A DNA stretch of 47,843 bases from positions 1 through 47,843 of the forward strand of contig NZ_MSIE01000073.1 in NCBI RefSeq assembly GCF_001921205.1. Reading direction: 5' to 3'. Below are positions 14,971 to 25,297 of this stretch, piece by piece; the stretch's first letter is position 1, and every line of letters starts with the position of its first letter. The position numbers were made by a program, and so were the translations under genes. The DNA comes from Actinophytocola xanthii (GTDB lineage Bacteria > Actinomycetota > Actinomycetes > Mycobacteriales > Pseudonocardiaceae). The notes below the pieces were generated by a model. The model saw only the letters and a list, made by a program, of their open reading frames with translations, was not told the DNA's origin and did not search any database.

Positions 14971-15068
14971 GCGGAATCCGCCCGATCGTGTGAAGCCGCG
15001 GCCGGCGAGAAAAATCTCTGTGCGTCCGCGACGCGGCACACGTAGGCTCGGTGGTACACGAGAGAGGA

Positions 15069-15127
15069 GGTGGTCCAACGGTGAATTGCTATAGGACTCG
15101 TGAGGTGGCTGTCCGCTAAGGACCACC
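15069..15127 (+). repeat. Inverted repeat enclosing a mini-ORF and covering its Shine-Dalgarno
   Basis: GGTGGTCC (15069-15076) and GGACCACC (15120-15127) are perfect 8-bp complements. The left arm overlaps the AGGAGGT ribosome-binding site at 15065-15071, and the right arm starts directly after the TAA of the mini-ORF. An RNA pairing of the two arms would hide the ribosome-binding site. Confidence 0.5.
15081..15119 (+). CDS. Candidate 12-codon ORF (possible leader or small peptide)
   Basis: GTG 15081 to TAA 15117-15119 encodes MNCYRTREVAVR. The Shine-Dalgarno GAGAGGAGGTGG is near-ideal and 8-10 nt upstream, stronger than that of most long genes here. A TAGGCT hexamer at 15043-15048 could be its -10 box. 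No downstream same-strand gene lies close enough to be attenuated, since the next gene is antisense and then pyrD more than 1.1 kb away. The transcript may therefore be a small RNA with a coding part. No homologue is recognised from memory. The rest of 14971-15306 holds no other gene I can support. Confidence 0.35.
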   Translation: MNCYRTREVAVR

Positions 15128-15306
15128 CAACCGGACATGGTTTGGCCGGCTGCGCAACACGGCTGACATCGGCTCTGCCGGTGCCGTAGACGCGCGGTGT
15201 GGTCGGCGAATACCAGGCAGTCACCCGGCCCCCGGAGCTCTCAGGACCTCGTCCGATCCTGAGCCTGTGCTCGCTCGGCGAACGCAGGAGCCGCCCGGGG
15301 GTCGTC

Positions 15307-16206
15307 CTATTTCCCGTTCTGTTTTCCGCCCAGCTCGTCGAGCGCCCGCTCGGCCTGCTGCACCGAGCGCCACGCCTGGCTGGCCCGGCGCTCGGCGTCC
15401 TTCACCGACCGGCTCGCGGAGCCGACCCGACGGCGTGCCTCCTTCTCGTGGGCCTCCGCCGCGTCGAGCTCCTCGTAGACCCGCCGGACCGCGTCGGTCG
15501 CCTCGTCGGCGAGCCGCTGGGCCTCGGCCAGGATGCGTTCCTCCTCGGCCCGGTCGGCCTCGGCCTCCTTGACCGCCCCGCGCGCCCGCTCGAGCTCCTC
15601 CCTGGCCGCCTCGACCTTCGCCGCGTGTTCGGCCTCCTCCCGCGCGGACCGCTCCTTCTTCGGCTTGGCGGGACGGGGACGGCTCACCGGCGCGGTAGCC
15701 GCGCCCGAGCTGCTCGCGGTGATGTCGGGCCAGGCGGCCACGGCGGCGAGCTCCTTGGCCGAGGTCAGCCGGCCGGCGAGCAGCACCCTGGCCACCTCGG
15801 GGTCAGCGACCGCCGTCGTGAAGATCTCCTCGAGCTCCCGGACGATCGCCTCGGTCAGCGGGGCGTCCTGGAATCGGCCGGCCTGCTTGACCAGGGTCGC
15901 GACCAGCGCGGTGCGCTTCTGCGACAACGTCCTGAGCTCGGCGCCGGCGAGGGCGGCGTGGGCCTCGCGCAGGGCGTCGCCGAGCTCGGCGACCTGGCCG
16001 AGGTCGGCGTCGGGGTCGCGGGCCAGCTGGTTGGCGAGCCAGGCCGAGGTGGTGGGCTTGGCGAGCTTGTCGATCGCGGCGGCCGTCTTCTGGTCGCCCT
16101 GGGCCCTGGCCGCCTTGGCCAGCTCCTTGCGCCGGGCGGTGAACTCCTCGCGGGTGCCGGCGTAGAGCTGCTCGGCGGCCGAGTCCAGGTCGACGGTGTC
16201 TGGCAC
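15307..16206 (-). CDS. Hypothetical protein, coiled-coil rich
   Basis: 299 residues from GTG 16206, with AGGAG about 13 nt upstream. The N-terminal part (about 1-150) is helical with regular Lys/Glu/Ala content. A Pro/Lys linker ([12 protein letters not shown]) leads into a long predicted coiled coil of heptads ([19 protein letters not shown]) ending in a Gly-Lys-Asn tail. No membrane segment, signal peptide or catalytic motif is seen. It is divergent from pyrD by 42 bp. Proteins of this layout are frequent and uncharacterised in actinobacteria. The reading frame stays open for 380 more codons antisense to pyrD, which is a GC-rich artefact. Confidence 0.7.
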
Positions 16207-17985: not shown

Positions 17986-18031
17986 GCGGAGCAGCCGCGC
18001 GGCCCGTGCTGGACGTGCTGGACGCGCCCTA

Positions 18032-18193
18032 GGGCGCGTCCTCAAAGTCCCGGTCGATGGGCTTCGTGATCCAGGTCGTCGCTGGCAAGGCGGAGGGCAG
18101 GCCTCGTACCGGGTCGTACTCGGCCTGTCCGACAACGCCGCCAGCGGCGGGCTGGGCGCGAAGACCGCGACCGAGGGCTGTGAGGACGCTCCC
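18032..18193. mobile_element. MITE-like element, copy A (162 bp)
   Basis: 162-bp repeat, about 94% identical (nine substitutions, no indels) to copy B at 25086-25247. Ends are imperfect inverted repeats beginning GGGCGCGTCCTCA and ending TGAGGACGCTCCC. It is flanked by TA (18030-18031 and 18194-18195), so the reconstructed target is CTAG. It encodes no transposase. It lies between the convergent VOC and pspM genes, and its terminal base completes the TAG stop of pspM. Confidence 0.8.
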
Positions 18194-19032
18194 TAGGAAG
18201 CCGACTCGGACAGCTCGCGGAGGGCGGCGGCCAGACCGGCCAGGTGGTCGGTCGCCTCGGTGAGCTCCTGTTTGGGGCCGGGCGCCGAGGTGGCGGCGAC
18301 AACGCGGCCGGCAGCGGCCACCAGGCTGCGGTAGCCGTCCAGGCCCTCGTCCAGCTGTTCGCGCAGCCGCGTGACGCCCTCGACCAGGGGGCCGCGCTCC
18401 AGGGGCGGGGCGTGGTCCCTGGCCACCTCCACCGCGGCCAGCTGGGCGGCCACCGCCCGCAGGGCGTTGGCCGCCTCCGTGCCCGTGGCCCTGGCCTGTG
18501 CCACCGACTCGGCGGGCACCGCGGCGTTGGCGCCGGTCAGCTGGGCGAGGACCTGGGCCAGCGCCGTCTCCGCCTCGGCCAGGCGCTGCATGGGCTCGCG
18601 GGCCGCCGAGCCCTTGGGGGGCAGCGCGGTGGGCGCGGGCCGGACCGCGGCCGGAGCGTGTTGCTCGTCGAACTCCCGCTGCGCCCGCTTGAGCAGCGTC
18701 ATCTTCCGCGCAGCGCGGATGGCGAGCGTGCCGGTCACCAGGCTGACGGCGATACCACCCGCCGCGGTCAGCGGATCGTCGTCGGTACCGATCGCGCCGG
18801 TGAGCGCCCCGACGACGAACACCATGCAGATCGCCGTGATCAGCGCCCAGGCCGTCGCCCAGCGCGACGCCCACATCCGGCGCCGTTCGAGCTTGCGGCG
18901 CTGGCGCTCGATCCGCACCGCCTCGTCGCCTCGGCGGGCGAGCGCGTCCTGCACCTGCTGGACGACCTGCCCGTTGACGTACCGGCTGGCCAGCCGGGTC
19001 AGCTGGTTGATGTCCCGACCGCTTAGTGCCAT
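18193..19032 (-). CDS. pspM: Phage shock envelope stress protein PspM
   Basis: 279 residues from ATG 19032, preceded by GGGGAGG. Layout: N-terminal charged helical region, two close membrane helices (about 53-110: ALITAICMVFVVGALTGAIG and the following IAVSLVTGTLAI), then a long helical C-terminal part. It lies directly behind pspA in a clgR unit, as for the actinobacterial PspM membrane partner of PspA (Rv2743c type). It probably recruits PspA to the membrane under envelope stress. Its TAG stop is formed with the first base of the adjacent MITE. Confidence 0.78.
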   Translation of the reverse strand: MALSGRDINQLTRLASRYVNGQVVQQVQDALARRGDEAVRIERQRRKLERRRMWASRWATAWALITAICMVFVVGALTGAIGTDDDPLTAAGGIAVSLVTGTLAIRAARKMTLLKRAQREFDEQHAPAAVRPAPTALPPKGSAAREPMQRLAEAETALAQVLAQLTGANAAVPAESVAQARATGTEAANALRAVAAQLAAVEVARDHAPPLERGPLVEGVTRLREQLDEGLDGYRSLVAAAGRVVAATSAPGPKQELTEATDHLAGLAAALRELSESAS

Positions 19033-24432: not shown

Positions 24433-24549
24433 CTTCTTCCCGACACCTGTTGTTAGCCGGTTGGCGGGTACCGCGTTCGTCGTCGTGGCGGCCTAATTGT
24501 TCTGGGTCCACGACCGGTGGACCCGGAGTTCCTCATGAGGGAGACAAGC

Positions 24550-25086
24550 GTGGCCGCGTCAACCCTGCGTCGTGCCGCCCAGGCACTGGTCACCGCCATC
24601 GCGCTCGCCGGCACAGTGCTCGCCGGCACCATGTTCGCCGGGGCCGCGACCGCCCAGGCCGCCCTGGACCCAGCCCAGCTGCGGGCCGAGACCGACAAGT
24701 ACCTGTTCAGCACCTCGCTGAGCGGCTTCCAGACCCTGCGCGCCCAGCAGCCGCACGCCGACCAGCTCAACTGGTCCTCGGACGGCTGCACGAGCGCGCC
24801 GGACAACCCGTTCGGCTTCGACTTCGTCCGGGCGTGCCACCGGCACGACTTCGGCTACCGCAACTACCGGCAGCAGGGTCGGTTCACCGAGGCCAACCGG
24901 CTCACGATCGACAACCGGTTCAAGTCGGACATGTACTCGATCTGCGACGGCAACTGGGCCTGCAACCGGTTCGCCGACGTCTACTACGCGGCCGTCCGCC
25001 AGTTCGGCAACAGCGCGCTGAGCACGGCGGACATCCTCGACCGGGCATCGGTGCGCACGGCGGCGGCGCTGGCCGCCAGCCGCTAG
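24550..25086 (+). CDS. Secreted prokaryotic phospholipase A2
   Basis: 178 residues from GTG 24550 (GGGAG 6 nt upstream); ATG 24535 and GTG 24517 are in frame but leave an odd head before the signal peptide. The signal sequence (AAQALVTAIALAGTVLAGTMF) ends with AQA. The catalytic block is DGCTSAPDNPFGF, FVRACHRHDFGYRNY with the His-Asp pair, and DNRFKSDMYSICD, the actinomycete PLA2 family with calcium-binding and disulfide residues. It releases fatty acids from phospholipids outside the cell. The TAG stop is completed by the first base of MITE copy B. Confidence 0.88.
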   Translation: MAASTLRRAAQALVTAIALAGTVLAGTMFAGAATAQAALDPAQLRAETDKYLFSTSLSGFQTLRAQQPHADQLNWSSDGCTSAPDNPFGFDFVRACHRHDFGYRNYRQQGRFTEANRLTIDNRFKSDMYSICDGNWACNRFADVYYAAVRQFGNSALSTADILDRASVRTAAALAASR

Positions 25087-25247
25087 GGCGCGTCCGCACA
25101 GTCCTGGTCGATGGGCTTCGTGATCCAGGTCGTCGCTGGCAAGGCGGAGGGCAGGCCTCGTACCGGGTCGTACTCGGCCTGTCCGACAACACCGCCAGCG
25201 GCGAGCTGGGCGCGAAGACCGCGATCGAGGGCTGTGCGGACGTGCCC
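25086..25247. mobile_element. MITE-like element, copy B (162 bp)
   Basis: Same length and orientation as copy A. Ends are GGGCGCGTCCGCACAG and CTGTGCGGACGTGCCC, flanked by TA (25084-25085 and 25248-25249); the reconstructed target is CTAA. At terminal position 11 copy A has a T-A pair and copy B a G-C pair, a paired change in both arms. It lies between the convergent phospholipase and lipase genes. Confidence 0.8.
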
Positions 25248-25297
25248 TAAGGCCGACGCGGCGGGGGCACGCCGGCGGCGTGCCCCCGTCGCGCGTC

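Follow-up and report, generated by a model that had tools for sequence, protein, structure and literature searches.

The window analysed here, a stretch of 47,843 nucleotides of Actinophytocola xanthii, carries two 162-bp repeats, one beside pspM (NCBIfam NF047839, PspM_Rv2743c, 208 bits) and the other beside a prokaryotic phospholipase A2 gene (Pfam PF09056, 141 bits). Gene coordinates and stop positions come from a simple gene caller based on codon usage, written for the purpose and trained on the window's own genome (G000), and all counts of stops and gene contexts below are calls of this program. The initial annotation had described the repeats as a pair with terminal inverted repeats and TA flanks, whose end bases complete the stop codons of the genes they abut. 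This description is borne out. By direct comparison the copies are equal in length and unlike at exactly nine positions, and their terminal inverted repeats, aligned without gaps, match at 17/22 positions in copy 1 and 19/22 in copy 2. The gene calls and the sequence agree that in each of the two genes the TA of the flank and a G of the element make up the stop codon TAG. Removing the element and one TA in silico gives the two targets that had been proposed, CTAG for copy 1 and CTAA for copy 2.

Table 1. The two repeats of the window, their flanks and the genes they abut.
Feature	Position	Strand	Remarks
MITE copy 1, 162 bp	18032..18193	+ (strand with the more stable fold)	mixed ends: left of TCAAAG type, right CTGTGA
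Left TA of copy 1	18030..18031		target duplication, CTA|G
Right TA of copy 1	18194..18195		with element base 18193 forms the pspM stop TAG on the minus strand
Conserved structured core of copy 1	18052..18177	+	match to covariance model R1, 136.6 bits
pspM	18193..19032	-	stop TAG takes in the last base of copy 1
MITE copy 2, 162 bp	25086..25247	+	left of GCACAG type, right CTGTGC
Left TA of copy 2	25084..25085		with element base 25086 forms the phospholipase A2 stop TAG
Right TA of copy 2	25248..25249		reconstructed target CTAA
Conserved structured core of copy 2	25106..25231	+	match to covariance model R1, 133.2 bits
Prokaryotic phospholipase A2 gene	24517..25086	+	stop completed by copy 2

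Immediately to the left of copy 1, positions 18020-18031 read GGACGCGCCCTA, the mirror image of an element end, so that a 22-bp palindrome spans the CTAG; this is possibly the remnant of an earlier copy. Behind copy 2, a separate GC-rich palindrome (25257-25293) is perhaps the native terminator of the phospholipase and lipase genes, which converge there. At 15056-15310 the window also matches the Rfam family Ms_IGR-5 (RF02471) at 80.5 bits.

A BLAST search of the own genome returned 43 matches, including two reverse self-matches and one partial tandem, and covariance model R1 returned 48 at E <= 1e-3. We tabulated 37 copies, leaving out two at contig edges (L010, L011), a truncated one (L045), a partial tandem, a short one (L065), the copies of a second family except L046, and weak matches. 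TA stands on both sides of 26 of the 37, with reconstructed targets of CTAG (21 copies), TTAG (three), CTAA (one) and CTAC (one). In the other 11, TA is missing on one or both sides as the script set the boundary, which was misplaced for L032 and L046. Within the main family of 38 copies the mean pairwise difference is 5.2%, and no two copies are identical. Short, without a transposase gene, bounded by terminal inverted repeats, present in many copies and flanked by TA on both sides, the repeats are MITEs, confirmed beyond chance by copy number and TA flanks. Tandem copies ~165 bp apart, which would be expected if a rebuilt CTAG were hit again, occur at L032 and on contigs C138, C74 and C206 of genome G132.

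The target is C-TA-G, and the outermost bases of the element are G on the left and C on the right, so that each junction of an insertion reads CTAG. A TAG stop is therefore restored automatically, for a gene on either strand. The restored stop and the CTAG/TA target of the initial annotation are supported, and restoration is the arithmetic of ends and target, with no adaptation to stops. This CTAG rule gives a mechanical reason for the low cost of insertion at a stop codon: the target holds the stop, and the element ends rebuild it on both strands.

R1 matched 104 of the 249 genomes sampled from the window's family at E <= 1e-5, in 29 of 46 genera, and 17 of 396 genomes of a phylum sample at E <= 1e-3, the own genome included; both counts are lower bounds, as few candidates per genome were scored. 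Beyond the window's family, the phylum sample gave matches in another family of its order, in other parts of the class and in genomes outside it. Named carriers are Pseudonocardia (now Actinospineispora) acaciae, one Amycolatopsis MAG and two Actinophytocola MAGs; Actinophytocola and A. acaciae belong to the Pseudonocardiaceae. With the L104 element as query, BLAST returned 34 Streptomyces plasmid records, and the three that were inspected hold hairpins of the same kind. With a window copy as query it returned six such records, one of them a chance match. Four of nine genome-contig matches (L110, L111, L112, L117) were chance matches of a 20-mer and were excluded. One query of phage records gave no match, and in the open PubMed Central literature, searched by titles and abstract starts, no paper on the element was found.

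The element is predicted to be very stable as a hairpin (-123.7 kcal/mol, z -10.5). We aligned the core of 34 sequences, the window and 33 relatives, and took the structure by RNAalifold from the same alignment. Paired cells make up 95.6%, and in 28 of the 42 pairs both partners change. The covariation score of 0.451 compares with 0.169 for shuffled alignments (0/500 as high) and with at most 0.097 for slid controls. The compensatory changes go beyond both kinds of control, counted over related sequences in which the events are non-independent, with a structure drawn from the same alignment and with template switching as a possible source. By this alignment, the element folds into a single long and imperfect hairpin, and its core is conserved between genera, with compensatory changes in the pairs. 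No curated Rfam family fell on the element, either in the window at gathering scores (where only Ms_IGR-5 matched, elsewhere) or at six element loci at E <= 1 (one weak match, off the element).

The fold also distinguishes the two strands. G.T cells number 229 and A.C cells 16 (71 vs. 14 in the 35 columns dominated by Watson-Crick pairs), and columns 19-114 form a U-G pair in 32 of the 34 sequences. In 49/49 sequences the fold of the + strand is the more stable of the two, each beyond its own shuffled mean, the strand having been set by homology to the window for 34 and, for the other 15, by R1, which itself favours that strand. The loop motif GCAAGGC occurs together with CAACG or GAACGC in 13/17 aligned sequences, a set of which 15 members come from outside the window's family; matches of this kind are favoured by the model. 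Within the own family, C>T changes exceed G>A changes both in G-C pairs (15 vs. 5 distinct) and at unpaired sites (20 vs. 5 by copies), and mutation may therefore account for some of the surplus of G.T. That the core is kept because the fold of one strand does something is the weakest inference we draw.

The ends behave differently from the core. When family 1 and family 2 of the own genome are compared, identity is 9/9 at positions 1-9, 4/12 at positions 10-21 and 39/43 at positions 22-64; on the right side it is 4/12 at positions 142-153 and 8/8 at 154-162. Positions ~10-21 of each end are thus variable, and in many cases they match the ends of different IS5 elements. Among the 38 main-family copies, 22 are of GCACAG type at both ends and six of TCAAAG type at both ends. 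Seven of the remaining ten mix the letters of both types (copy 1 of the window, w18032, with L020, L024, L027, L030, L031 and L044), while L017, L025 and L038 have other single changes in their ends. TCAAAG stands at the same place in an IS5-type element of another genome (L159). The differing ends may have arisen by recombination, by arm-to-arm copying or by drift alongside the transposase.

Shorter and longer arrangements of such ends were also seen. On a Streptomyces albidoflavus plasmid, an Imm21 immunity gene lies between ends that read CTAAGGGCTGTCCCGTAA and face opposite ways (L304:1804-3328), a possible cargo-bearing non-autonomous element. A 38-bp palindrome comprising little beyond the two ends lies at the stop of a Rid hydrolase gene (L306:1804-1841), and L058 contains a derivative of ~50 bp that resembles it.

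For a transposase with ends of this kind, the own genome offers a 973-bp element on contig C165 with ends GGGCGTGTCTGGTGGATC / GGGCGTGTCTGACGGATC and flanks CTA and TAG. Its two overlapping frames carry DUF4096 and DDE domains by Pfam, and both score above the cut-off of NF033580 (IS5). A family-2 MITE adjoins this IS, with one CTAG common to the two, and has like ends (11/13 at positions 6-18); the gene whose stop this MITE abuts encodes a glycosyl hydrolase 16. Partner searches, which used the IS5-type domains PF13586 and PF13340, gave DDE_Tnp_1_2 matches in 15 of the 23 core-bearing genomes searched. TA-flanked IS ends could be recognised in some of the fetched partner loci, and the partners in own and related genomes are mostly ~940-1040 bp long. 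We compared 28 MITE ends with 21 IS ends, both lists being hand-picked. At positions 6-18, L113 and L114 agree with L274, L103 with L153, and L096 with L166 (the last pair both in G124) at 13/13 bases; the own TCAAAG type agrees with L159, L086 with L274, and L101 with L166 at 12/13. Ends in common with an IS5 element were therefore found for family 2 (C165), for the TCAAAG type (L159) and for the four 13/13 ends. About two thirds of the MITE end types compared match IS5 ends above shuffled ones (P 0.05, uncorrected for multiple comparisons), and nine of the 28 have no such match (L088, L089, L090, L098, L099, L104, L108, L116, L126). No IS in the own genome was found to have exactly the ends of the main family; of the four DDE_Tnp_1_2 matches there, one has recognisable ends of such a type. 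Nor was an IS with the same ends found in G115, a genome of the same genus, where a pattern search and PF13586 each gave 0 hits and four DUF4096 matches showed no recognisable TA-flanked ends.

On Streptomyces plasmids the core lies between ends that begin CTAAGGGCTGTCCCGTAATCCC (L301). A 1.4-kb element, L303, has 18 bases of such an end in common with L301, its second end being weaker, and its transposase scores best with an IS5 model, at 114.1 below the cut-off of 140. A match in a gene labelled 'IS5 family transposase' on a Streptomyces coelicoflavus plasmid (H31) was rejected as progenitor, being a chance match of 56 coding bases.

In the stretches examined, CTAG occurs ~15-fold less often than expected from base composition. 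The own genome has 98 non-element sites (25 stops, 62 intergenic, 11 coding) in 566 kb, where ~1436 would be expected, and G115 has 71 sites (20 stops, 43 intergenic, 8 coding) in 400 kb, where the expectation is ~1076. About a quarter of the occurrences are stop codons. In the own genome 18/37 copies abut a stop, compared with 25/98 non-element CTAG sites (Fisher p 0.013). Copies are in excess in convergent gaps (16/36 vs. 16/80 background sites, p 0.012) and depleted in divergent gaps (5/36 vs. 31/80, p 0.009); these context counts leave out one copy and seven background sites that are not flanked by genes on both sides. When divergent gaps are excluded, the excess at stops is non-significant (18/31 vs. 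25/56, p 0.27), and promoter avoidance therefore accounts for much of it. In relatives, 21/33 loci abut a stop and none lies inside a called gene; for this count the near-duplicate L082 and four chance loci were removed, L113 and L114 share a MAG, and L098, which belongs to G115, is counted again under that genome.

G115 has a younger family, with 12 full-length copies of which 28/66 pairs are identical. Eleven of the 12 abut a stop, compared with 20 of the 71 CTAG sites (p 5e-5), and outside divergent gaps the proportions are 11/11 and 20/47 (p 0.0004). Five of the 12 split a CTAG that serves as the stop of both convergent neighbours, an arrangement found at 4/71 background sites (p 0.0025). 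The element shows no orientation bias to the abutted gene in the own genome (10 sense, 11 antisense) or in G115 and the relatives (21/20). The suggestion that 3' ends between convergent genes are a low-cost niche is supported by these counts, and non-random placement at stops holds for the own genome overall and for G115, but not for the own genome outside divergent gaps. The element is absent from both loci in 5/5 same-genus genomes (10 loci, best model score 14.3 bits), but the exact junctions were not recovered because the 3' flanks of these genomes are too diverged. Scanning with a looser motif yielded no more than scattered hits, on which we do not rely.

Taken together, we consider it highly probable that the 162-bp repeats are MITEs, hairpin-forming and non-autonomous, and that they are mobilised by IS5-family transposases. 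Such a transposase would cut at the element ends and duplicate TA; insertions would survive mainly at 3' ends, where the protein is unchanged and no promoter is hit; and the core would persist while the ends are exchanged, with a change of transposase partner. The initial annotation had pointed to IS630-type (Tc1/mariner-like) elements. TA duplication and a preference for CTAG would fit IS630 equally (compare RUP and IS630-Spn1 in the passages of PMC2229807), and an IS630 partner is possible for unmatched end types (G115, G648, L108) given searches directed at IS5-type domains. The attribution itself is very improbable, as the C165 transposase is IS5 by NF033580 in both frames and that of L303 scores best with an IS5 model, though below its cut-off. 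From sequence comparison, an IS5-family transposase is the best-supported candidate carrier. The stop position could also be a by-product, with CTAG rare, a quarter of its occurrences stops, promoter sites lost by selection and no further preference. We regard this as somewhat probable: the scarcity of CTAG and the own-genome counts outside divergent gaps agree with it, while the stop-abutting copies and double stops of G115 speak against it, in small numbers from one genome under our own gene caller.

Two further alternatives concern the hairpin. If its compensatory changes came from template switching between the palindrome arms, and not from selection on a folded strand, end types should tend to change on both arms, as the 22 and six copies with like ends do, and the C>T excess at unpaired sites may likewise leave part of the G.T excess to mutation. 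Yet template switching should erase wobble pairs and asymmetric loops, and the persistent U-G pair, the preponderance of G.T over A.C, the uniformly more stable + strand and the recurring loop motifs, the last two subject to the influence of the model, make this account rather unlikely. The host might instead keep the element as a bidirectional transcription terminator or 3'-end stabiliser, a role that the predicted stability, the 3'-end placement and the excess in convergent gaps would suit. We judge this distinctly unlikely: the element is absent at the orthologous loci of all five same-genus genomes, it stands either way round to the abutted gene at random, in spite of the better fold of one strand, and a separate palindrome persists behind copy 2.

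On the strength of their ends and cores, we read the repeats as a putative superfamily of MITEs in which a structured core passes from one transposase partner to another. In its fullest form, which we offer tentatively as possible but doubtful, the conserved hairpin of one strand (RNA or single-stranded DNA) would be the lasting unit of an actinobacterial mobile superfamily. It would swap the specificity segments of its ends arm by arm to change transposase system, with mixed copies such as that at 18032 as intermediates, and would be specialised on CTAG at stop codons, including shared convergent stops, prising genes apart with both stops intact.

MITEs are usually regarded as derived from one IS. 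Here a single structured core is seen, throughout a family and in Streptomyces, joined to ends from several IS5 lineages. The idea that a parasite of parasites switches partners thereby becomes open to test, and R1 can be used for annotating such intergenic hairpins in actinobacterial genomes. REP/BIME palindromes resemble the element in being intergenic and present in many copies, but are not known to duplicate TA and are associated with a REP-associated tyrosine transposase. The RUP element of pneumococcus is small, has IS-like ends and a TA target, and is inferred to move in trans with IS630-Spn1 (PMC2229807); it differs in its IS630 partner and its length of 107 bp, and a structured core shared across genera is not mentioned in the passages of that paper on which we draw. 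According to the same passages, Correia/NEMIS and ERIC/RU-1 are hairpin MITEs of 100-200 bp whose transcripts are predicted to form long stem-loops, and Correia/NEMIS have TA at their termini, as here; one core with different terminal repeats, or placement at stop codons, is not reported there (PMC2229807). IS5-family insertion sequences (NCBIfam transpos_IS5_3; DUF4096 and DDE) are like our element in their ends and their CTAG/CTAA-type targets, and unlike it in carrying a transposase gene. E. coli IS5 has a 4-bp target duplication in the passages describing it, whereas we read the duplication here as TA; the two readings are indistinguishable where an element has CTAG at either end. In kind, the element is an IS5-family MITE, and what is unusual about it is a common structured core with different ends, a fold that favours one strand and, in a young family, a concentration at stop codons.
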